A stretch of DNA of 64,000 nucleotides. Source: Ligustrum vulgare. Lineage: Eukaryota; Streptophyta; Magnoliopsida; Lamiales; Oleaceae. Under the pieces are notes generated by a model. That model was given only the letters and a program-made list of their open reading frames with translations, did not search any database and was not told the origin of the DNA. Below, piece after piece: positions 2,236-58,919 of the stretch; positions within the stretch are counted from its first letter, which is position 1, and each line of letters opens with the position of its first letter. The stretch lies in NCBI GenBank assembly GCA_963555705.1, contig OY743183.1, positions 27,749,932 to 27,813,931 on the forward strand. The letters run 5' to 3'. Position numbers and translations under genes: made by a program.

Positions 2236-3978
2236 CTAAATTAGAAACTCAGATTTTTGGAGCTCAACAGGAAGTTTCTCGTTTCCATCTCTAATAGCCA
2301 TCAACTCCCTCGAATTGTCTTCCAAATAAGCTTTCAAGAAAGCGATCACAATCCCCCCAACAAATCTCCTCATCGGCTCCCTCGATTCCCCGTTCTTGCA
2401 CAAACAATGCGTCGTCCTCCCTCGAATCCCTTTTGTCTCATCGTCCAGCATATCAAGATGGCCATAATCCTTCACAACGAAATGAAAAGCAAGTTTTCGA
2501 CATTCGTTAAAGAAGTCTTGATGATTCACTCCTATAGGAGCACAAGGAGGGAAAAGAGGATTTCTTTTCATTTCTCCCAATCCCGAACCTATAACCATTA
2601 CCGCCATGTCAAGATCGAAGGAATGGGGTACGTAAGTTAGTACCGGAGGGGGCGTTTGTTTTCCCTTATCCATTCCATCGACAGGATCAATGCCGATCAA
2701 GGCTGAGAATCTCAAAGAACTGACTTGCTTTCTCAGAGCTAGAGCGAAAGCGACTTTCCCTCCTCGACTGTGCCCAGCAAGTCCCAGCTTTGTCAAGTCT
2801 GGTCGAACGTGAGTTGGCAGAAAATGGTACAGTCCTCCTGTTAACCAATTCGTTATATCGGCAGTGATCTTGATTTCTTCGTTTGCATCAGGTCCTGTCA
2901 CGCTGTATAACTGGTAGAGCAAAACGAATTTTATTTGTCATGCATCTGAAACACAAATAACCTTCATAAATAGGTTAAATTTCAACTAGGACAGAAAAAT
3001 TTGGACCCTAAATTTTCTTCTGTAGTTTCTATTATCAGATTTCAATGACTCGGAAAAATAATGTTAGTCAGATTAGTTTGTAATAACTGATTAAAGTCAT
3101 CGTTCTCTCAATTTATCCTCAATCTGTGTCTCTGCCACTTGGTATTATATGTATATATATATATATATATATTATTCCATAAGCTAATTCCTCATATTTT
3201 ATTGTATTTTGGCTCCTCCTGAGGGGTTTGTCCGCTTTGTCATCCTTGCTGTTACATCTAGCATAATTCATTATTATAATCGAATTATGCTCCTTTGTCC
3301 ACCTCATTCTACTACGTCCGTTGCCCCTCTCATGGATGAATGTGGGACAGGCCACAGAATTAGCGGGCCCACCCCCACCCCACTCCACTGGTAGAATAAA
3401 ATTTGTAAAATAACATGACTCATTATAACCTCTTAAGCATCTATATACATTCATACTAGAATCTTTATCTATGACATTTTGTCCATAATTAAGTACCATA
3501 ATAATTCAGCAACACAACTGATAATGGATAACGAGAAAACAGAAAGATCAAATTTTAATTACCGCAAAACTACAAAACAAATATAGCATATAATAAAAAA
3601 AAACTCGTAATTCCCTCTTACTGAAACAATAAAAATCATTTGACAAAATCTTCTTGAAAAATAAATAAATAAGCTGAAGAACCTAACCTGGGGTGCAACG
3701 ACAATGAACCCATGTGAAGAAATATGTTGAATAAGCTGAGAATAAAAAGAGTTATAGAGAAGGTAACCATGGAGGAGTATGAGTACTGGGAAAGTTCCTG
3801 ATTCTGTTGGCGTCCCAATTAAAAGTGGCTTTGGAGGAAAACTGACTGAACCACTGCTATTGCATGTTTTAGGCTCAATTTTAATCAGCTTAATTAAATG
3901 ATTTCCAATATCAAAAGCATTACTAGAGGAGGAGGAGGAAGAAGAAGAAAAGGTGGGAGTTGTAGATGAAGAATTCAT
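2236..3978 (-). CDS. CLH: Chlorophyllase, two exons
   Basis: The product removes the phytol tail from chlorophyll, giving chlorophyllide. Exon 1 is 3688-3978 (97 codons, ATG at 3976-3978) and exon 2 is 2236-2910. The intron, 2911-3687, has GT (GTTAGG) and AG (CTACCAG) ends and is phase 0, giving 321 residues, the usual length of the family. The serine-hydrolase motif GHSRGG carries Ser145. The probable partners are Asp172 in GIDPVDG and His248 in YGHLDMLDD, the arrangement of the chlorophyllase triad. The lipase-like oxyanion region LLHGY is in exon 1. The N-terminus is a serine-rich stretch rather than an obvious transit peptide, so location (plastid, vacuole or ER) is open. No frameshift or premature stop is seen, so it looks intact. 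The intron contains a short (TA)n run near 3150-3171. Confidence 0.95.
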
Positions 3979-4390
3979 GATGAATTCAATTGCTCAAGCT
4001 CTTGTGTGTATTTCTTGTTTCTGAAGGATAGAGGTTTCACTCTTACTAGTGGCCTATAATGTATTATCCCACTGTGTGTTGTACTCTGGTATCTACCTCT
4101 TATGTTTTTGCCTTTTCAGTGGGAAAGCAAGAAATTTGTAAGCAGATATTTTCATAGTATTTCACTTCTCTTAAATGGATATTTTCTTTTATACCAATAA
4201 AATATGGACACAACGCCAATTTTACACCTCAAATATTTTTTCTTTTTTTTAACAACAAATTCCTTATTGGCTGTTAAACATTATCAGTTAATCCTCTCCT
4301 TTGATGTTAATTGATTTGGCATTGTCGGCTATACTCAAGCTTTTCATCTCTTGGAACCCAAAAAAATCTCTAATGATAAACTCATTATTG
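3979..4390. other. Upstream region of chlorophyllase
   Basis: This should contain the chlorophyllase 5' UTR and promoter, reading leftward. I see no unambiguous TATA box or regulatory motif. Confidence 0.4.
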
Positions 4391-16229: not shown

Positions 16230-16234
16230 ACACT
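16230..16234. other. Left 5-bp target site duplication (ACACT)
   Basis: ACACT precedes the TGTAGC start of the left LTR, and the same five bases follow the right LTR at 25480-25484. Confidence 0.95.
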
Positions 16235-16523
16235 TGTAGCGACCAAGAATTTTTACGCGATTAATAATTATTTTAATAGAAAATCGTGTCGCTACTATTT
16301 CACCGATTTTTATTAAGTAACGCCGTGACGTATTCGTATAGCCAAGTCAAGAAATAATCGAGATCGTTCGATTTTAAATTAAATTCCGAATTTCTAAAAA
16401 TATCTCCATTCTCTTGATTTAAAATATATTAAGTTCAAGTACTTAATTCAATGTTATCCCAATATTTATTTATACAAAAATTACTTTTATTATTGAAATT
16501 AAGAAAATATATGCAAGCATGGG

Positions 16524-16940
16524 AGGTTCCATTATATGTAATCATGAAGAGCATAATATTTGTATAAATATGGAAAAGTATATGAATGATTTATATACTC
16601 CATTATATATAATCATGAAGAACATAATATTTGTATAAATATGGAAAAGTATATGAATGATTGATAAGACTCCATTATATGTAATCATGAAGAGCATAAT
16701 ATTTGTATAAATATGGAAAAGTATATGAATGATTTATATACTCCATTATATATAATCATGAAGAGCATAATATTTGTATAAATATGGAAAAGTATATGAA
16801 TGATTGATAAGACTCCATTATATATAATCATGAAGAGCATAATATTTGTATAAATATGGAAAAGTATATGAATGATTGATAAGACTCCATTATATATAAT
16901 CATGAAGAGCATATTATTTGTATAAATATGGAAAAGTATA
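16524..16940 (+). repeat. ~71-bp tandem repeat in left LTR (six units)
   Basis: Units contain CTCCATTATATATAATCATG, AGAGCATAATATTTGTATAA and GGAAAAGTATATGAATGATT. About six copies are seen, with spacers alternating between TTTATATA and TGATAAGA. The same array is in the right LTR at 23491-23907. Confidence 0.9.
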
Positions 16941-17171
16941 TGAATTGTGCTTTACTTTAAGAAAAGGATGTGTTAAAATTAATAGAATTTAATGATTATG
17001 TTTACAATATGCCAACTTTATACATCTATTTAAACCCATCTCTTTTACACACAACTCTACACATATACACTTATTTCCAATCTCTTGACAAAATCCACAA
17101 GTAAGAGAAATTCAAGGTGGTCAAGAAAGTTTTGGTCCATTTACTACTACACTTCATTTTAATCTTTTAAA

Positions 17172-18000
17172 AGGTAAGTATATCTTATGTTTTTATGAAA
17201 AGTAAGTATGTTTTTATGAAAGGTAAATACACCTTATGTTTTTATGACAAGTAAGTATATCTTATGTTTTTATGAAAAGTAAGTATGTTTTTATGAAAGG
17301 TAAATACACCTTATGTTTTTATGAAAAGTAAGTATGTTTTTATGACAAGTAAGTATATCTTATGTTTTTATGAAAAGTAAGTATGTTTTTATGAAAGGTA
17401 AATACACCTTATGTTTTTATGACAAGTAAGTATATCTTATGTTTTTTATGAAAAGTAAGTATGTTTTTATGACAAGTAAGTATATCTTATGTTTTTATGA
17501 AAAGTAAGTATGTTTTTATGAAAGGTAAATACACCTTATGTTTTTATGAAAAGTAAGTATGTTTTTATGACAAGTAAGTATATCTTATGTTTTTATGAAA
17601 AGTAAGTATGTTTTTATGAAAGGTAAATACACCTTATGTTTTTATGACAAGTAAGTATATCTTATGTTTTTATGAAAAGTAAGTATGTTTTTATGAAAGG
17701 TAAATACACCTTATGTTTTTATGAAAAGTAAGTATGTTTTTATGACAAGTAAGTATATCTTATGTTTTTATGAAAAGTAAGTATGTTTTTATGAAAGGTA
17801 AATACACCTTATGTTTTTATGACAAGTAAGTATATCTTATGTTTTTATGAAAAGTAAGTATGTTTTTATGACAAGTAAGTATATCTTATGTTTTTATGAA
17901 AAGTAAGTATGTTTTTATGAAAGGTAAATACACCTTATGTTTTTATGAAAAGTAAGTATGTTTTTATGACAAGTAAGTATATCTTATGTTTTTATGAAAA
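17172..18000 (+). repeat. Minisatellite of splice-donor-like units in left LTR
   Basis: The array alternates three related ~26-bp units: AAAGTAAGTATG-TTTTTATG, ACAAGTAAGTATATCTTATG and AAAGGTAAATACACCTTATG. I count about 25 occurrences of GTAAGTAT in some 830 bases. This octamer matches the intron side of the consensus plant 5' splice site. The identical array in the right LTR spans 24139-24967. Confidence 0.9.
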
Positions 18001-18514
18001 TGTTTGGATCATTGCTATGAAATCAATCTCACAAGATTGTTATGGGTTCCATATGATATGTTTATGATTATGCTAAGGGGACCGGAGTTTAGTAGCGCTA
18101 CACATAAGAATTCTTGCCATTTAAGTTCGGTAAAATTCTTGTGTCTCCCTATGTTTATGAGTATTTCGATCCTATCCTATGTTATGATGAAAATGATCCA
18201 TATGCATTCAAAAGAAAATTTATGCTTGGTATACTTACTGGGATTTTATAAATCTCACTCCACGATATTTACCATTTTCAGATAATTGAAGGTTCGAGGC
18301 GGTCAACATGGAAGTGGCAAAAGTGGTTAAGATTGATGAGATAATTATGTTGAACTTTATGTAAGAAAATTATGTTCTATTTTTATTCACAAATAAAATT
18401 ATGGGATTCTAATTATTCTTTTGAATAATTTTACATTACTATTTAAGTCTCGATAATATGATATGAGTCACTTTTAGTGGCACTCGAATGGTCGAGAATT
18501 CGGGTCGTCACAGT

Positions 18515-18526
18515 TGGTATCAGAGC
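18515..18526 (+). other. Primer-binding site (initiator tRNA-Met type)
   Basis: TGGTATCAGAGC lies two bases after the left LTR. This is the standard plant PBS complementary to the 3' end of initiator tRNA-Met. Confidence 0.92.
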
Positions 18527-20461
18527 AAAGAGTTTTAAAAACGATTCTGTAGATTTTTGAAATTTTATTTCTTTAAAAAAAAAAAAAAAAAATCACTATT
18601 CACGTGAACAGTAAAACGACGTGCTATTCATGATGAACAGTGAACGAAATCACTATTCATTATAAAAAAAAAAAAAGTTGAATTTTCACATGTCAAGTAT
18701 GGTTATGATTTTGAAAAGCATGATGAAATTTGATGTGCGAATTTCAAGGACAAAATTCATTTTAAGTAAGGGAGTTTGTAATGTCCTGAAAATTTTATGG
18801 AATATAATTAGTTAGTGATATGATGTTTATATTGATGTCTTTGATAAATTTCTAGAAGTTCGGGGACTAAAGGAAAAATAAGATTTGACGATAAATTTTA
18901 TTTGGGTTAAGTTATTAATTATTGATGGGGAGATAATTACTATATCGATATTGGATTTGTTTTGAAGACTGTGATTAATTAGGAATTATGATTCAAGAAA
19001 ATGTTGATTTGGATACAACCACATTAAATTATTGTTGATTAAAGGAAAATAAGATTATATGAAATATTTTAACTCATCACTCTACTATGTCACTCTCCAC
19101 GTATTGACTCCTCGAACCAGGTATGTTATATGCTTTGCAAGTCATTTACGATTTTATTAAGACATGTTAAGTATGAAATCTTCATATGTTATGAATCTTT
19201 AAGTGAAATATACATGTTGAGTATGATATGAATTGATAGAAGCCTGAATTTTAATTTATTCCTTTTTATGTAGAATCATGAGACATAGAGGATATTGATA
19301 TGAATTTTGGTTCATATTAAGCTTAGTAAGACTGACTAAATTAGAAAAATAAGTTGGTTCGTAACTTTTGCCAAAAAAAAAAAAAAATATATGGAATAAT
19401 ATATTAAACAAACAAAATTAATAATGAATTTGTACAATAATTTATCCCTTTATCACTACCTTTGTGTAAAAACAAGGGAAAAACTGTGGATGGTTATTAG
19501 TACTTCCTCTTCAAGTTTCAATTTTCGGTTCAATAATTTATCCCTTTATCACTACCTTTGCTTAAAAGCAAGGAAAAACTGTGGATGATTATTGGTACCA
19601 CTCTTCAAGTTTCAATTCTGAAAAAAAAAAATTCGGAAAGAAAGAAAGAGAACGGGTGTTGAGCCTAATGGGAATAATATGACTTAAGAATGATTTTCAA
19701 AATAATTGTTGTCCTCGAGTTTAGAAATGATGAACCTTAAATGGACTTTGCATAATTGATTTTAGACATGGCACTAAGTATAAGAAGTCAACAGAAATGA
19801 TTAGAAATATGTTCAGATTATCTATCATTTAGATTTAATGAGAAATAGCGAGCCAATTTTATGAAGTTTTATGAGATGTTAAGATTATAAGTGGTTTTAA
19901 TGAGACTTTTATGAGAAGCATTATGAAGTTAGAGATTTAAAGATTTGGTTATTGGGAATTAAGTAATGGATATTATGTTGAGTAAGTGAATTATGCCTCT
20001 ATATTGAAGAGAAATTTATTATGAACTTTGGCCTTGTGATTAAATTTTGGGAATATGATTTATGACTTATAAATATAAGTATGAGTAATCTTTTGAGCCA
20101 ATTAAGGTATGGAAGGAAGTGATATTGTGATATTGAAAAATATGATTTGAAATTGTTATGTTGAGGAATTATGAATTGAATTATGGGATATTTTTGGATG
20201 ATATTGAAGTGTTGGAATCGTTTTCAATATTTTTAGATCGTTGTGATCAAATGTGGAGTTATTTATTATTGTGAGTTATGAAGTATGCTTATGGTTTGGG
20301 ATAAGTCCAAATTACAAGGGAGACTTTGTCCAAAATTTTATCATTTGGAATTAAGAGCATGATATGATAAGCATCCACTAAAGGAATTAAGGTTAGACAT
20401 GCAAGTTCATTTACATCACAAACGAGATTTAGTAGATGATAGCAGAGATTTTATTATTTTC
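18527..20461 (+). other. Internal non-coding part of the retrotransposon, left
   Basis: No gag-pol frame is found. At 18735-18780 there is a second polypurine-tract-like phrase (TTCAAGGACAAAATTC, then AAGTAAGGGAG) followed by TGTAATGTCC, which looks like the internal/3'-LTR junction of another gypsy element. A ~115-bp tandem duplication lies at about 19425-19620 (shared phrase TTTATCCCTTTATCACTACC). The rest is AT-rich with scattered stops. Confidence 0.6.
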
Positions 20462-20544
20462 TCATAAGGAGAACATACAAAGAGTCACACTGGAAAAGAA
20501 ATACATGAAACACGCAAAAGCAAAAGAAAGCAACATGGGAAATT

Positions 20545-20775
20545 CCTCAAATTGAGAGATGTGTTTCCGGAGTAGCCGTATCCTACCACCTCTGACCTTT
20601 TGAGGAAATAAAGAAACCTTCAAAGAGGTGTGTTTCGAGAGTAAGAATACTCCGTAATCTACCACCTGGAACCTTTGAGGTACACACAAGATTTAAACAT
20701 TAAGGAAATCCTAGGAAATTAGAGGGGTGTCTCGAGAGTAAGAATACTCCGTACTCTACCCCCACCTATTCTAAG
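20545..20775 (-). other. Three successive stem-loop repeats 3' of the LOG ORF
   Basis: Predicted foldbacks lie at 20545-20605, 20617-20680 and 20710-20775. Each pairs a CCTCAAA- or CCTAGGAAA-like left arm with an inverted right arm such as CCTTTTGAGG. The loops of the second and third share GAGAGTAAGAATACTCCGTA. They lie just downstream of the LOG ORF on its strand, so they could form part of its 3' UTR; this is inference. Confidence 0.5.
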
Positions 20776-20842
20776 ATTCATAAAGTTAAGTTTACATTAA
20801 CCGGACTCCATTTTCGCTTGATTCCCCTTCCTTGCGACCAAT

Positions 20843-21433
20843 CTATCTTAACCCCTGCTGGATCTTGTATTGAGAAATATATGACTGCAGCTTATCCAGT
20901 AGTTCATCAATAGTAGGAGCAGAAATAAGGAGCCTTCTGGAAAATGGAGAGATGAATCCCTGTTCCACAGCATAATCAAGAAAGGTTAACAAACCATCAA
21001 AGAAATTGTTAACATTCAGAAGCCCAATAGGCTTAGTATGGAGATCTAGTTGAGCCCACGAGGTAATGTTAAAGATTTCTTCTAAGGTACCAAAACCTCC
21101 GGGCAGGGCTATAAAGGCATCAGAACCATATAGCATACAAGTTATGCGTTCATGGATGGATAATGTTTGAACTTCATGCCCTCGTGTTTTGCCTGCAACA
21201 TCTACTAAAGGGACAGGTATGACACCGATTACTTTTGATTTCTCTGCAAGAGCAGATTGGGAAACACAACCCATTAGACCACTGCTACCACCCCCATACA
21301 CAAGAATGATACCTTTTTCCCCCAGTTTCTTTCCAAGATCTACGGCCGCTTCTAGATAACTGAAGCCTTTCCCCACTTTTGATCCACAAAATACACAAAT
21401 AGTTTTGATCTGTCGAAGTTTTGGTGCTTCCAT
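20843..21433 (-). CDS. LOG: LONELY GUY-type cytokinin riboside 5'-monophosphate phosphoribohydrolase, intronless
   Basis: LOG enzymes release free cytokinin base from cytokinin nucleotides in one step. This 196-residue ORF is full length and uninterrupted. It has YGGGSSGLMG at 46-55 and the family signature PGGFGTLEE at 111-119. Arg96 (in HERITCM) and the glutamates of GTLEE, the catalytic residues of the family, are kept; the lysine that usually follows the arginine is isoleucine here. The C-terminal half has SWAQLDLHTKPIGLLNV and AVEQGFISP. Most plant LOG genes have several introns, so the single exon suggests a cDNA origin, though an intronless donor gene is possible. It lies antisense inside a young LTR retrotransposon, 296 bp downstream of another minus-strand ORF. 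A weak TATA-like TTTAAATAG lies about 80 bases upstream of the ATG. Confidence 0.9.
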   Translation of the reverse strand: MEAPKLRQIKTICVFCGSKVGKGFSYLEAAVDLGKKLGEKGIILVYGGGSSGLMGCVSQSALAEKSKVIGVIPVPLVDVAGKTRGHEVQTLSIHERITCMLYGSDAFIALPGGFGTLEEIFNITSWAQLDLHTKPIGLLNVNNFFDGLLTFLDYAVEQGFISPFSRRLLISAPTIDELLDKLQSYISQYKIQQGLR

Positions 21434-21729
21434 CTTTGATAGTATAGAAGAGAAAACTTACGAAGAAGATGTGATTTTGGGATGCCTGAACTATGAAATA
21501 TGTTTGACTATTTAAAGCCGGAAAAATTTACTGTTTTTGATTGATTATGAAAAAGTAAAGATTTACTTTTGACAAAATCGGCCAACTTTTGACTGTTTTA
21601 CCAAAGATATCACCTTTCGGTGATTTATTTCCAGCTTTATCAAAACTCGAGAAAGGAAAATATATTTTATTTCCAAAACGCGTGAAAGAAAACAGCAAAA
21701 TATTTTAAATGTGTATCAAGAGATTTACC

Positions 21730-22329
21730 TTATATCATTGTTGAACTGCCAGAAGCCTCATTTTGTAAAACAGACTGGCAAACAGGATCTTTTGCTATTA
21801 TATTTTGGAGACTATAACGATTTTTGTCCTCGTTAAACTGAGCGTATAAGAAGAGAAGTTCACGTTGCACATAACCACTTGGGTGCGTCTCAAGAGTCAG
21901 TCGAATATCATCCAAAGACTCCTTACTCAGTCCACCCTTTATGAATTTGATTTTATCATCCCGATTAGTAGAAGAATATCCTACTGTTTTGCAACGAGTA
22001 TCACAGTTCCAACGAGCACATTTGTAGCAACCATTCAGCCTTTTTGCTCTTCGTTTCTTTGCGAAGGTGCTTTTGCCTAAACCAGGCATGTGCTTTGGAA
22101 ATGTCATAGGTAATTCACCAGATAGTCGAACCTTTGCTTCGATCAACCAGCGAACATCTTCTGAAACACCATGAGCCATCAGCAACCTCAATCTTTTGAG
22201 TCTTATTCGATAAATTTTCCTCAGATCATTCATTGGAAGACTGGAATAATACTTGCGAATGTTTGTAAGAATGATATCCATGTTTTTGATGGATCTAACC
22301 TCTTCCCAGCATGAACTATTTAAAAGCAT
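21730..22329 (-). CDS. Unrecognised basic protein with Cys cluster, carried by the retrotransposon
   Basis: I do not recognise this 199-residue ORF. It is rich in Arg and Lys in its first half (for example RIRLKRLRLL and FAKKRRAKRLNG) and has a cysteine cluster CYKCARWNCDTRC at residues 101-113 with C-x2-C-x4-C-x3-C spacing. That spacing could bind zinc but is not the CCHC knuckle of retroviral Gag. The second half (SLDDIRLTLETHPSGYVQREL) looks like an ordinary globular, non-repetitive protein. No stop or frameshift occurs, and codon use looks natural. Start choice is uncertain; Met17 (22281) or Met33 are alternatives. It lies upstream of the LOG ORF on the same strand and could share a captured transcript with it. 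It may be a captured plant gene of unknown function. Confidence 0.6.
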   Translation of the reverse strand: MLLNSSCWEEVRSIKNMDIILTNIRKYYSSLPMNDLRKIYRIRLKRLRLLMAHGVSEDVRWLIEAKVRLSGELPMTFPKHMPGLGKSTFAKKRRAKRLNGCYKCARWNCDTRCKTVGYSSTNRDDKIKFIKGGLSKESLDDIRLTLETHPSGYVQRELLFLYAQFNEDKNRYSLQNIIAKDPVCQSVLQNEASGSSTMI

Positions 22330-23187
22330 TAAGGATCGGAGGGAATCCGCGTGATATTGATTCCAGCAAGAAAGTGCGGAATAGAATAATGGAAAAGAGG
22401 GAACAAGAGTTTATGCGCCGTTTACTTTCTTGATAAAAGGAAGATTTGATGATGACGGGATTTGAGATATGGAATATTTTCTTGGATTTTTGGGTACTGA
22501 TATTTTGATATAATAATCAAGGTATAGAAATAATACGGGGATACGTGAAAGTGAAATAAGGACTGTATTGAATCAGGATTAATAAGTTTGTACAAGTGAA
22601 AGGAATACCTTACGGGAAATGTTATGATATTTGAGTTAAGAATTTTAATTATTTGGGAGATATTTGTTTATTGAATTTTGCAGAAATTTTGGGTTACAAA
22701 TATTGGAAAGATAAACTGATGATTATGTTGATATGTGAATAACATGTTTGGATATATTACATAGAGAATATTCAGGTAATCGTTTTAATTATTTTGGGAT
22801 ATTTGGTGATAAGAAGAAATGACAAATTATTATGGTATGATATGTTAGTAAAGATTTATTGAAATTTTAGAGATATTAATACGAATATTTGAGGTTACAT
22901 GATACTATGATAAGTGACAGGTTACATGAGTACTACAAGATATGATGAAATATCACATACGATTGGAAATTTTCATTTTGAGTTAAAATTTATGAGTAGA
23001 CACATATGTCTATTATTGATAAGAAAAATACATGTTCTTAAGAAAACAAAGAGATGCATTTAGTAAAAGTCCAGTGGGTTAGATATTATGATGATGAGAT
23101 TACTAAGAGAAAGAAGAGAAGAGATTCTGATTAAGTGTTCAGAAATCATAAGATCAAGTAAGTTTAATTTCGAGGACGAAATTATTT
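22330..23187 (+). other. Internal non-coding part of the retrotransposon, right
   Basis: This is AT-rich with frequent stops in all frames. The last 150 bases (AAAGTCCAGTGGGTTAG to TTTCGAGGACGAAATT) resemble the degenerate 3' end of a gypsy internal region. Confidence 0.5.
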
Positions 23188-23200
23188 TAAGGGGGTAAGT
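23188..23200 (+). other. Polypurine tract of the retrotransposon
   Basis: TAAGGGGGTAAGT precedes the TGTAGC start of the right LTR, preceded by TTTCGAGGACGAAATT, which is typical of plant Ty3/gypsy 3' ends. Confidence 0.85.
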
Positions 23201-23201
23201 T

Positions 23202-25479
23202 TGTAGCGACCAAGAATTTTTACGCGATTAATAATTATTTTAATAGAAAATCGTGTCGCTACTATTTCACCGATTTTTATTAAGTAACGCCGTGACGTAT
23301 TCGTATAGCCAAGTCAAGAAATAATCGAGATCGTTCGATTTTAAATTAAATTCCGAATTTCTAAAAATATCTCCATTCTCTTGATTTAAAATATATTAAG
23401 TCCAAGTACTTAATTCAATGTTATCCCAATATTTATTTATACAAAAATTACTTTTATTATTGAAATTAAGAAAATATATGCAAGCATGGGAGGTTCCATT
23501 ATATGTAATCATGAAGAGCATAATATTTGTATAAATATGGAAAAGTATATGAATGATTTATATACTCCATTATATATAATCATGAAGAGCATAATATTTG
23601 TATAAATATGGAAAAGTATATGAATGATTGATAAGACTCCATTATATGTAATCATGAAGAGCATAATATTTGTATAAATATGGAAAAGTATATGAATGAT
23701 TTATATACTCCATTATATATAATCATGAAGAGCATAATATTTGTATAAATATGGAAAAGTATATGAATGATTGATAAGACTCCATTATATATAATCATGA
23801 AGAGCATAATATTTGTATAAATATGGAAAAGTATATGAATGATTGATAAGACTCCATTATATATAATCATGAAGAGCATATTATTTGTATAAATATGGAA
23901 AAGTATATGAATTGTGCTTTACTTTAAGAAAAGGATGTGTTAAAATTAATAGAATTTAATGATTATGTTTACAATATGCCAACTTTATACATCTATTTAA
24001 ACCCATCTCTTTTACACACAACTCTACACATATACACTTATTTCCAATCTCTTGACAAAATCCACAAGTAAGAGAAATTCAAGGTGGTCAAGAAAGTTTT
24101 GGTCCATTTACTACTACACTTCATTTTAATCTTTTAAAAGGTAAGTATATCTTATGTTTTTATGAAAAGTAAGTATGTTTTTATGAAAGGTAAATACACC
24201 TTATGTTTTTATGACAAGTAAGTATATCTTATGTTTTTATGAAAAGTAAGTATGTTTTTATGAAAGGTAAATACACCTTATGTTTTTATGAAAAGTAAGT
24301 ATGTTTTTATGACAAGTAAGTATATCTTATGTTTTTATGAAAAGTAAGTATGTTTTTATGAAAGGTAAATACACCTTATGTTTTTATGACAAGTAAGTAT
24401 ATCTTATGTTTTTTATGAAAAGTAAGTATGTTTTTATGACAAGTAAGTATATCTTATGTTTTTATGAAAAGTAAGTATGTTTTTATGAAAGGTAAATACA
24501 CCTTATGTTTTTATGAAAAGTAAGTATGTTTTTATGACAAGTAAGTATATCTTATGTTTTTATGAAAAGTAAGTATGTTTTTATGAAAGGTAAATACACC
24601 TTATGTTTTTATGACAAGTAAGTATATCTTATGTTTTTATGAAAAGTAAGTATGTTTTTATGAAAGGTAAATACACCTTATGTTTTTATGAAAAGTAAGT
24701 ATGTTTTTATGACAAGTAAGTATATCTTATGTTTTTATGAAAAGTAAGTATGTTTTTATGAAAGGTAAATACACCTTATGTTTTTATGACAAGTAAGTAT
24801 ATCTTATGTTTTTATGAAAAGTAAGTATGTTTTTATGACAAGTAAGTATATCTTATGTTTTTATGAAAAGTAAGTATGTTTTTATGAAAGGTAAATACAC
24901 CTTATGTTTTTATGAAAAGTAAGTATGTTTTTATGACAAGTAAGTATATCTTATGTTTTTATGAAAATGTTTGGATCATTGCTATGAAATCAATCTCACA
25001 AGATTGTTATGGGTTCCATATGATATGTTTATGATTATGCTAAGGGGACCGGAGTTTAGTAGCACTACACATAAGAATTCTTGCCATTTAAGTTCGGTAA
25101 AATTCTTGTGTCTCCCTATGTTTATGAGTATTTCGATCATATCCTATGTTATGATGAAAATGATCCATATGCATTCAAAAGAAAATTTATGCTTGGTATA
25201 CTTACTGGGATTTTATAAATCTCACTCCACGATATTTACCATTTTCAGATAATTGAAGGTTCGAGGCGGTCAACATGGAAGTGGCAAAAGTGGTTAAGAT
25301 TGATGAGATAATTATGTTGAACTTTATGTAAGAAAATTATGTTCTATTTTTATTCACAAATAAAATTATGGGATTCTAATTATTCTTTTGAATAATTTTA
25401 CATTACTATTTAAGTCTCGATAATATGATATGAGTCACTTTTAGTGGCACTCGAATGGTCGAGAATTCGGGTCGTCACA
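23202..25479 (+). repeat. Right LTR (2278 bp)
   Basis: It matches the left LTR at a constant offset of 6967 bases with no length difference. I see four substitutions, corresponding to left-LTR positions near 16434, 16613, 18098 and 18169. Confidence 0.95.
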
Positions 25480-25484
25480 ACACT
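25480..25484. other. Right 5-bp target site duplication (ACACT)
   Basis: ACACT directly after the right LTR matches 16230-16234. Confidence 0.95.
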
Positions 25485-31614: not shown

Positions 31615-32985
31615 TTATTGAAAGTAGCGACGAAGATGATCAGTGTTCCAAGGGTTGCGCAGGGGGCCTAGATAGGTCTTCAATCATGAATGTACCGGGT
31701 ACTACCTCGGCAGTGACTTTATAAGGTCCCTCCCAATTAGGACCCAAAGTCCCTACTCCTGGTTCTTGAGTAGAGGGGAGTATTTTCTTAAGGACCAAAT
31801 CTCCAATGTTAAAGTGTCGACCTTTTACCCTTTTGTTGTAGTAGCGGACCATTTTTTTCTGGTACCTGGCCATCACCATTTGGGAATCACTCCGTCTTTC
31901 AAGGAGGAAATCCAAGTTTGCCCTTTGTGCTTCTTGATTTTCCGCCTCGTCATAATGGATTTGACGAAGAGAAGACACCCCAATCTCAACTGGACATACC
32001 ACCTCGGATCCATACATCATGGAGAAAGGCGTTTCCCCTGTGGCGGTGTGCGAGGTGGTCCGAAGTGCCCATAACACCTGTGGGAGTTCATCTACCCATG
32101 CACTATTTTTTTATTCCAACTTTCTTTTTAGGGTATTCTTTATGGTCTTGTACACGGCTTCGACCTGCCCATTTACTTGTGGGTGATGTGGAGATGAAAA
32201 TAATTTACAGATTCCCAAATCCCCGTATAACTCGTTAATATCTCTATTTTTGAACTGCTTTGCGTTGTCACTAACCAAGGAGTGTGGTATCCCAAATCTG
32301 CATTTAATATTCTTCCAGATGAACTTGGTAGTTTTGGCTTCAGTAATCCTCATCAGGGGCTCCGCCTCAACCCACTTGGTGAAGTAATCGATTGCCACTA
32401 CTGCGAAGCAATTATTACCAGTACCTCTGGGTATAGGACCAATAATTTCAACTCCCCACTTCGCGAAAGGCCAGGGACTGGTTACCACAGTCAATTTGTG
32501 ATGTGGCTAATGCGGTATGGTTGCATGTCTCTGACATTTATCGCACTTGCGGATGAAGTTATGGGAATCCTTTAGCATAGTTGGCCAAAAGTATCACTAT
32601 TTGAGGGCTTTCCAAGCTAGTGATAACGCTCCAGCGTGGTTGCCGCATATGCCCTCATGAATCTCTTTCATTATATACTGTCCTTCCTTCGGCCCAACAC
32701 ATCGCAGCAAAGGAGAGGTGTAGCTCCATTTATAAAGCAGATCGTCCAAGAGGACAAATTTTGCGGCATACCTTGCAGTTTTCGAGCTACTTCCAGCTCG
32801 TCTAGTAGGGTTTGATGCTTCAAGTATGCCAGTATAGGATTCATCCAAGAACCTTCTTCTTCTATTGCCAAAATCTCCACTCCTTGTTCGATGGAAGAGA
32901 TCGATAGATGCTCAATTGGCACCATATTGAAGAACTCGACGTCCTTACTGCTTGCTAGTTTAGACAAAGCATCGGCGTCGATTGT
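31615..32985 (-). pseudogene. Ty3/gypsy (Tat-like) RNase H end and integrase, decayed
   Basis: Reading leftward, the fragment starts with the end of RNase H (ALSKLASS), passes a linker, then an integrase HHCC zinc finger (HEG..GNHAG, and CDKCQRH near 32545). The integrase core follows with AIDYFTKWVEAEPL, LVSDNAKQF and HPQVNGQVEA, then the C-terminal part with GDLVLKK and GPNWEGPYKV. It ends at a stop at 31615-31617 in a shifted frame. Several frameshifts divide it. At the first catalytic position the usual Asp of WGxDxxGP is Glu (WGVEIIGP). The upstream reverse transcriptase is missing: the sequence is cut near 32985 by CACTA-type DNA. Confidence 0.88.
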
Positions 32986-57424: not shown

Positions 57425-58781
57425 TTAAAAAACATCATCTTGATTTTGAGAATTAGCAAATTGCTCCCACAAATGCTCAATTAAGGCATCTCGAAGTGCA
57501 TAGTGGGCAGAGACATTCTTGATTTGTCTGTGATGAGCAAGAAAATTTTGAAAACGAACATTTTCATCCCGAACCATCTCAACTTCTGGGGGTGGTGCTT
57601 CGTTCCAATCTTTAATTGGGGCATCAACATCACGTTCATCCTCAATAATCATATTATGCATAATAATACACGCTGTCATTATATCCTTCAGCACATGTTT
57701 GTGCTAAAATCGTGATGGTCCTGCTACAATTGCAAACCTTGATTGTATCTTTTCTGCAGCTCTCTTGTTTGGTTGCAAATAATCTCTTTTTTGGACCACA
57801 TGGATCATGAATTGTTTGCACAAGAGTTGACCACTTTGGGTATATGCCGTCAGCTAAATAATAGCCAGTGTCGTACTCCTTTCCTTGGATGACATAATGA
57901 GCTGGGGGAGCCATACCTGAAGTAAGATTGGAAAAAAGATGGGAACTTCCCAACACGTTAATATCATTGTTTGATCCTGGTAGCCCGAAGTGTGCATGCC
58001 AAATCCAAAGATCATAGTCAGCTACTGCCTCCAAAATAATAATTGGGCGTCCACTACGACTTGCATATTGACCTGCCCAAGCAGTTGGACAATTTTTCCA
58101 CTTCCAATGCATGCAATCTAGACTACCCAACATTCCAGGGAATCCTCGTTGTTCACCAATAGCTAGTAGCCTGGAAACATCGTTATAGTTTGGCGATCTA
58201 AGATACTGCGACCCGAATATCTCAACAACTGCTCGACAAAAGCGCTTCGTACTCTCAATAGCAGTGGATTCTCCAATTCTAACATATTCATCAGTTGCAT
58301 CTGCAGGTACGCCATAAGCAAGAATTCGAAATATTGCAGTTACCTTTTGAAGTGCGGATAGTCCAACTTTACCCGTGCAATCTCTCTTTTGCTTGAAGTA
58401 ATTGTCATGAGCTTTCACGGCATCAACTATTCGTAGAAATAAACTACGAGACATACGAAATCGACGTCGAAATAGGCCCTCGTGAAAACGTGGATTCTCG
58501 GCAAAGTAATCATTAAATAAATTCAAATCTGCAGTTTCTCGCTCACGGTTGATTACTATGTGGCCTGGGATGGAGCCTCCATGCCTCGGATGGACATCTC
58601 GTTGTTGCCTGCAATATTCAGAAAGAAGGAAATTGTTATTGGTCTGCATGCCTACCACCGCAACACTTTCAGCTTCAATCATATTCAGCATAGTTTCGAA
58701 AATTTGGGGTTCTCTTTCATGTTCATCATCACAATTAATGGATGAATGTCGAGAAGGAGAACCTCCAATACCCGAACTCAT
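57425..58781 (-). pseudogene. PIF/Harbinger transposase (DDE, HARBI1-like), disrupted
   Basis: The frame opens at 58781 with 345 good residues: an N-terminal region, the helix-turn-helix-like LFLRIVDAV area, and the DDE domain with Asp222 in LGSLDCMHWKWKNCP and Asp273 in GLPGSNNDINVL. After SCRKD (near 57747) the family motif VERAFGVL, which holds the third catalytic residue (Glu), is absent. The reading frame shifts there and resumes as SRFAIVAGPSRF, followed by TAG at 57704-57706. The C-terminal ACIIMHNMIIEDE then continues in the same new frame to the stop at 57425. The protein cannot be catalytically competent. Confidence 0.92.
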
Positions 58782-58919
58782 TGTTCTTGCTGAAGTTGAA
58801 ATGGGAGTTGTAATGTTTAAGATGATATGCCATCATTTAAATAGTGGTGAAGATAAGGGTAAGTCAAGATGACAAAAACATTCTCAATCCTTGGATTGGA
58901 TTTCATGAAAATCTGAGCC

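Follow-up and report, generated by a model that had tools for sequence, protein, structure and literature searches.

The stretch of DNA analysed here (the window: 64,000 nucleotides of contig OY743183.1 from Ligustrum vulgare) contains, at positions 16230–25484, a young long terminal repeat (LTR) retrotransposon, recognised by its LTRs (TG..CA), target site duplication (TSD), primer binding site (PBS) and polypurine tract (PPT). Two long open reading frames (ORFs) run antisense to the element, at 20843–21433 (196 aa) and 21730–22329 (199 aa). The first is of the LONELY GUY (LOG) type; the second, left nameless in an earlier note on this DNA, is by Pfam a virus-type nucleic-acid-binding protein (NABP). 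The features of the element are as follows.

16230–25484: whole LTR element with its TSDs; the ORFs lie antisense to it.
16230–16234, no strand: left TSD, ACACT, 5 bp.
16235–18512, plus strand: 5' LTR, 2278 bp, TGTAGCGACC...GGTCGTCACA.
18515–18526, plus strand: PBS, TGGTATCAGAGC.
20781–20879, minus strand: C-terminal LOG tail of the family, out of frame in the window copy.
20843–21433, minus strand: LOG-type ORF, 196 aa, with a Lysine_decarbox/TIGR00730 domain and PGGFGTLEE.
21730–22281, minus strand: NABP ORF, 183 aa when read from the conserved Met, with a basic patch and zinc-finger-type cysteines.
23189–23199, plus strand: PPT, AAGGGGGTAAG.
23202–25479, plus strand: 3' LTR, also 2278 bp, differing from the 5' LTR at 4 positions.
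25480–25484, no strand: right TSD, ACACT.

All the marks of recent insertion listed in the earlier note (LTRs of equal length, ACACT duplication, PBS and PPT) were recovered. The LTR pair differs by 4 substitutions (3 transitions) and no indels, a Kimura two-parameter (K2P) distance of 0.0018, and the 5' LTR holds internal tandem repeats of ~72 bp and of 49/28/21 bp. We take the PBS to be of the initiator-Met type; PBS and PPT are presumably similar to those of chromoviruses (Tekay-type), the element having no reverse transcriptase (RT) on which to base a lineage phylogeny. Both antisense ORFs are uninterrupted, as had been claimed, and longer than any ORF in 300 mononucleotide shuffles of the interior (longest ATG ORF: mean 70 aa, maximum 141).

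Outside these two ORFs, the interior has no stop-free stretch of more than 81 codons. No match above the curated cut-off was obtained when 9 of the 28 other interior pieces (at least 45 codons) and one LTR piece were scanned with Pfam. Similarly, tblastn with six pol-bearing plant gene models (containing RT, RNase H, integrase, protease or copia-gag domains) gave matches confined to the NABP/LOG parts of the window element, and an integrase query alone found none inside it. The same six models matched only the NABP/LOG parts of six related copies (L033, L051, L052, L039, L042 and L035) and, inside the element, of a seventh (L034), where an integrase fragment adjoins the element on the outside. 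A hidden gag-pol was rejected on the combined Pfam scan, integrase search and six-model tblastn, in agreement with the earlier statement that the element carries none. It therefore lacks the gag-pol (with RT, RNase H and integrase) of an autonomous Ty3/gypsy element and has the form of a large pol-less derivative (LARD type) in which two ORFs are retained; LARDs are regarded as non-coding.

The LOG-type ORF scores 9.5e-34 with Pfam and 8e-48 with NCBIfam TIGR00730, and its matches among PDB sequences are At2g37210 and At5g11950. The conserved Arg and the PGGxGTxxE motif, which we assume to be catalytic, can both be aligned in it, placing it in the LONELY GUY/TIGR00730 family; the NCBIfam LOG equivalog NF058542 gives 107.2 bits, below its curated cut-off of 300. 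Activity as a cytokinin riboside 5'-monophosphate phosphoribohydrolase is a prediction from family membership. The earlier description of a full-length LOG-type ORF is right as to type and wrong as to length, because the final ~30 residues of the family lie in a different frame (20781–20879) in the window copy, whose LOG span measures 591 bases against 589 in the other 39 scored copies.

The NABP ORF matches Viral_NABP (1.2e-7, 32.4 bits; cut-off 23) and Carla_C4 (9.8e-5, 22.7 bits; cut-off 20.9). By these scores it belongs to two families named for flexivirus zinc-finger proteins, and the models concerned (PF05515 and PF01623) each recognise 30 of the 31 NABP relatives scanned at E <= 1. A protein search returned 413 relatives of NABP, and one with LOG 6842, the best 120 of each being examined; among the matches listed, the named NABP relatives are plant proteins (Orobanche, Populus, Xanthoceras, Acer). 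Most aligned relatives begin at a Met equivalent to position 22281 and keep the basic patch followed by the conserved cysteines. The frame stays open to an upstream ATG at 22329 (199 aa), and from the alignment 22281 is most likely the start. The predicted structure of NABP has a mean pLDDT of 62. Scans of viral contigs found no relative with either the NABP sequence or the NABP alignment; with the LOG alignment they gave no more than two remote matches, of 37% and 29% identity.

We then looked at copies across the L. vulgare genome (G000; 1.385 Gb, 51 contigs). In a LOG DNA search, the best 40 of 722 candidates were scored, and all 39 besides the window copy match it at 99% identity. Two LOG protein queries, for which the best 150 each of 9395 and 9031 first-look candidates were taken, gave lists without overlap and hence at least 300 distinct LOG places on 23 contigs, 298 of them stop-free; these lists are biased to intact copies because they hold the top scorers for an intact query. 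A NABP search with P0018 (best 150 of 8580 scored) gave 137 stop-free places. At least four places carry a second, more P0018-like NABP lineage, 66–71% identical to that query (C1:46299482, C10:54776568, C16:40940302, C23:37051922), perhaps a pol-linked source. Among the first 40 copies fetched, which were drawn from the top LOG scorers, LOG is exactly 217 aa in 39 (207 aa in L048) and NABP is open in 39 (L031 has no full-length match). Thus the ORFs are neither unique to the window copy nor frameshifted in all others: LOG recurs at hundreds of places, and both ORFs are present in most fetched copies, a pattern that the earlier note had named as support.

These copies belong to several LTR families. 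Family A, the window type, has LTRs of about 1.4–2.3 kb and TSDs ACACT, CTCCA and CAGTG. Families A2 (L032, L033) and A3 (L051) have partly A-like LTRs of at least ~2.9 kb, the fetched region ending within them, and family B (L035–L050) has LTRs of only about 200–235 bp (TGTTATAAA..TTTATAACA). LTR ends could be resolved in 14 of the 16 family B elements (all but L049 and L050), and all 14 have perfect 5-bp TSDs and 0–2 LTR mismatches. Two further sequences, L052 and L053, cover the L015 and L026 places again at greater length and are not recounted; their ORFs are intact, and L053 shows no exact LTR motif. Compared to the window element, the family B element L039 has a single 2.06-kb stretch in common and shares nothing else:

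20501–22601, minus strand: shared NABP–LOG module, the sole stretch common to L039, 80% identity.

Consequently, one ~2.1-kb NABP–LOG module sits in two LTR families that are unrelated outside it. It is antisense in every one of the 20 elements whose orientation was read (14 of family B; the window element, L034 and L052; L032 and L033; L051). The TSDs, near-identical LTRs and many copies support the earlier proposal of a mobile antisense gene of the hormone-activation type. Separately, three LOG copies on one contig (G000:C6:13821963, 13828721 and 13835480) are spaced ~6.76 kb apart, as if family A elements stood in tandem and shared LTRs.

The module is under purifying selection between families. 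For LOG, A and B are separated by 57.5 synonymous and 13.5 nonsynonymous differences, a ratio of nonsynonymous to synonymous substitution rates (dN/dS) of 0.057; the ratio is 0.086–0.095 between A and A2 and 0.087 between A and A3 (dS 0.35). For NABP it is 0.21 between A and B, 0.17 between A and A3, and lowest, 0.09, between A2b and A3. The expected dN/dS below 1 among copies therefore holds, at 0.05–0.10 for LOG and 0.09–0.30 for NABP between families. Within families, LOG pN/pS is 0.33 and 0.13, both on small numbers.

The pairing extends to other plants. A joined NABP+LOG query returned 350 proteins, and both domain types are present in 29 of the best 120; among the matches listed, all 29 come from Orobanche, Citrus and Rhamnella. 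In Citrus sinensis, gene models fuse NABP with RT, RNase H or integrase; in Populus the domain joined to NABP is an aspartyl protease, and in Primulina LOG is fused with RNase H and integrase (Carla_C4 scores in these models are below the cut-off), so that in plants other than Ligustrum NABP or LOG is found in sense behind Ty3/gypsy pol domains. The same arrangement is seen in one database contig (L003, DAIEQH010000041.1), where NABP lies in sense 192 bp downstream of an integrase ORF (rve, H2C2). This integrase, which we take to be Athila-like, has no chromodomain at E 0.001, and there is no LOG within the remaining 983 bp past NABP. Between the window NABP and that of L003, dN/dS is 0.25 at dS 1.18, and pN/pS is 0.42 compared to 1.05 (minimum 0.69) in 300 random placements. 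L003 is filed under a Candidatus Nomurabacteria metagenome-assembled genome and resembles plant retroelement DNA by content, for which reason that assembly is probably contaminated. By eye, a GGTCA..GTGG..GGATA..CGG..ACTCCG-like stretch is apparently common to L003:1671–1700, in the spacer between integrase and NABP, and to the repeats after LOG in the window (20555–20763). Also by eye, the Orobanche NABP–LOG model P0241 reads Asn for the Arg of the active-site region and has an altered PGGxGTxxE; catalysis may have been lost in this and other Orobanche NABP–LOG models.

The phylogeny of LOG separates the window protein from typical plant LOGs. We omitted 58 of the relatives P0121–P0347 (fused, over-long, short or motif-lacking), and 170 rows were thinned to 129. 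In the resulting tree, 81 rows including the window LOG are set apart from 48, where plant LOGs that carry a name (from moss, grass, banana and other plants) stand together with a small number of TIGR00730-type metagenomic sequences. When the tail columns and five further rows were removed, the split persisted (79 versus 45, SH-aLRT 100). Direct linkage to retroelement genes is seen for only some members of the 81-row side. Several Populus proteins annotated 'LOGL10' also group there, which suggests that some plant genes of that name are retroelement cargo.

The two sides also differ in the tail. An LxLxL motif lies within the final 14 residues of 51 of the 81 window-side LOGs and of none of the 48 others (50/79 versus 0/45 after the same removal of rows and columns), and it occurs in 85 of the 120 best LOG matches, with 10.9 expected when each tail is shuffled. 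Copies in the L. vulgare genome end in VNVNLTL or VNVNLSL, a relaxed form of it. LxLxL is known as the EAR motif and is linked to TOPLESS-type co-repressors. The LOG tail thus suggests a putative capacity for nuclear co-repressor binding.

Several known systems resemble parts of this arrangement. YgdH (LOG-type) domains are described in Citrus and Populus Ty3/gypsy consensus elements in PMC9289625, which cites Steinbauerova et al. 2011. That a LOG-family domain rides on plant Ty3/gypsy elements is therefore already known; the account of YgdH given there mentions no NABP partner, antisense placement or shuttling, pol-less carriers, tail or selection test. Conserved antisense accessory genes are in turn described as additional ORFs (aORF-3R) of Grande, RIRE2, Retand and PvRetro13 (PMC7264820, PMC11963269). 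Grande gene23 has its own promoter and a nuclear protein, some Retand elements lack part of gag-pol, and a review among these sources terms the function and origin of such genes unknown. As described there, the aORF-3R genes lie between pol and the 3' LTR, with TRP28/SMC-type domains and no clear protein similarity; in contrast, homology is clear for both ORFs of the window module, beside which the searches recovered no portion of gag-pol. An acquired accessory enzyme, the AlkB-type m6A demethylase, is likewise carried by orchid Ty3/gypsy elements (PMC9289625); it is a different enzyme, described in two Phalaenopsis species and with no zinc-finger partner mentioned. Finally, the cysteine-rich proteins of flexiviruses have a nuclear localisation signal and zinc-finger motifs; several suppress silencing, and one is a transcription factor that induces hyperplasia (PMC12172455). 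The window NABP falls in the same Pfam families (PF05515, PF01623) but is encoded in a plant retroelement beside LOG. No description of a NABP–LOG cassette was found among the titles and abstract openings listed, in mostly non-subscription literature.

Structure, copy number, repeated antisense placement, selection between families and kinship to sense, pol-linked genes were all observed, and what joins them looks, from sequence comparison, like an old accessory cassette of retroelements and not a one-off capture of a host gene. The reading we prefer, and hold with about even confidence, is that the window element is a young, pol-less member of a family whose only recognisable coding content is this antisense accessory cassette, NABP then LOG. 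We hypothesize that transcription of the cassette starts at one or more promoters of its own, while the pol-less elements are mobilised in trans by putative autonomous retrotransposons; with the antisense layout, the cassette could retain a promoter and polyadenylation signals that leave the genomic RNA at full length. NABP may act as a nuclear nucleic-acid-binding silencing suppressor or transcription regulator, like flexivirus members of its Pfam families. LOG would convert the cytokinin nucleotide to the active hormone and so favour cells that divide or belong to a meristem, where new copies can enter the germ line; its LxLxL-like tail may draw in TOPLESS or another nuclear co-repressor. 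Together, the two proteins would aid replication of the element in dividing cells. The cell or its lineage would be the unit that benefits; intact copies could therefore be favoured, yet each copy need not be intact.

A bolder form of this proposal, which we consider rather doubtful, is that RNA viruses and retrotransposons share a growth and anti-silencing cassette. Flexiviruses and plant LTR elements would have exchanged a nuclear zinc-finger gene, which retroelements would have paired with a LOG that had acquired a co-repressor-binding tail; an active element would thereby make its cell divide with silencing lowered, as by a viral oncogene pair; pol-less elements would then have inverted the cassette into its own transcription unit and spread it across unrelated LTR families.

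The strongest alternative, possible though on balance unlikely, is that the cassette is passive cargo: captured from pol-bearing Ty3/gypsy elements and recently amplified, it would hold intact ORFs through youth, with selection acting in the sources only. Pol-linked NABP and LOG do exist in other plants, and when a 461-bp noncoding query was used, the 40 copies scored (the best of 2446 candidates) were all 100% identical over its length. By their offsets, 15 of these 40 copies coincide with a LOG on the stop-free lists, and one more (C9:24324168) has a listed LOG 1802 bases away. Several observations weigh against the preferred reading or for this alternative. Among the family B copies so found on C1 and C2, LOG is intact in six of nine (five in the stop-free list, plus L054) and frameshifted in three (L055–L057). 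The five noncoding-chosen copies that were fetched, a set that overlaps with those nine and includes L054, yielded one intact 217-aa LOG and four frameshifted ones, a sample biased to broken copies because it was chosen for absence from the stop-free list. L055, L056 and L058 share one LOG insertion, which shows that a frameshifted subfamily has also spread; since the window copy is frameshifted too, an element can do without an intact LOG in cis. Moreover, L018 combines a LOG identical to that of family A with a NABP about 5% diverged, a mosaic from which it follows that segments recombine between copies. NABP shows no constraint within families (pN/pS 1.05 and 0.86, small numbers) and a dN/dS of 0.20–0.30 between A and A2, and the selection seen between families could come partly from pol-bearing sources followed by recapture. 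What speaks against passive cargo is the LOG dN/dS of 0.087 between A and A3, accumulated over dS 0.35 since an ancestor that was probably antisense already, because the LTRs are partly similar and the arrangement is identical.

Selection might instead act on the plant, which would keep element-borne LOGs as a reservoir of cytokinin genes. LOG is a plant hormone enzyme, and the Populus 'LOGL10' proteins fall in the window LOG clade; we nevertheless think this improbable, since a gene of the element better explains why there are hundreds of copies and why none of the 48 LOGs across the split shows the tail motif. We give a similarly small chance to the idea that the antisense transcripts act as RNA, by decoying silencing or regulating the genomic RNA: orientation is antisense throughout and the 3' noncoding repeats are conserved, but dN/dS of 0.05–0.30 between families and the conserved length of both ORFs point to protein. 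It is most improbable that a host LOG mRNA was transduced once, in the manner of maize Bs1 (named in PMC7264820), even though this would account for an uninterrupted ORF inside a pol-less element. Bs1 carries pieces of host genes. The likeness is a host-type gene inside an LTR element; the window cassette, however, is present in many copies, several LTR families and several species with a separate LOG clade, and is not the one or few copies with host-gene pieces that mark a Bs1-type transduction. Copy number and LOG clade led us to reject such a single capture.

On the preferred reading of an accessory cassette, both sides have recognisable biochemistry, a hormone-activating enzyme type and a virus-type zinc-finger protein. 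Together with the selection and the unrelated LTR families, this makes the function and origin of antisense genes directly testable. The cassette may be a case of a plant mobile element manipulating host growth for its own spread.

Candidate regulatory sequences lie around both ORFs.

22316–22324, minus strand: TATA-like box TTTAAATAG ahead of the NABP start codon, unchanged in all 5 family representatives aligned.
21508–21516, minus strand: TATA-like box TTTAAATAG ahead of the LOG start codon, present in 4 of the 5 representatives.
20555–20763, minus strand: three repeats of ~43 bp after LOG, with good conservation between families A and B.

By position and conservation, the TTTAAATAG boxes are putative promoter elements and the repeats a possible 3' untranslated region (UTR) element. 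Rfam gave no match to the region after LOG, and folding z-scores are -0.42 and -2.03, with three pairs showing double changes among five sequences, which is weak support for a structured 3' UTR.

Elsewhere in the window, three more features were noted.

31676–32758, minus strand: degenerate Ty3/gypsy integrase region with in-frame stops, found by tblastn; a separate, older element.
57654–58832, minus strand: Harbinger-type transposase-like open stretch of 392 codons, by eye.
2236–3993, minus strand: two open stretches resembling chlorophyllase-type hydrolase exons, by eye.

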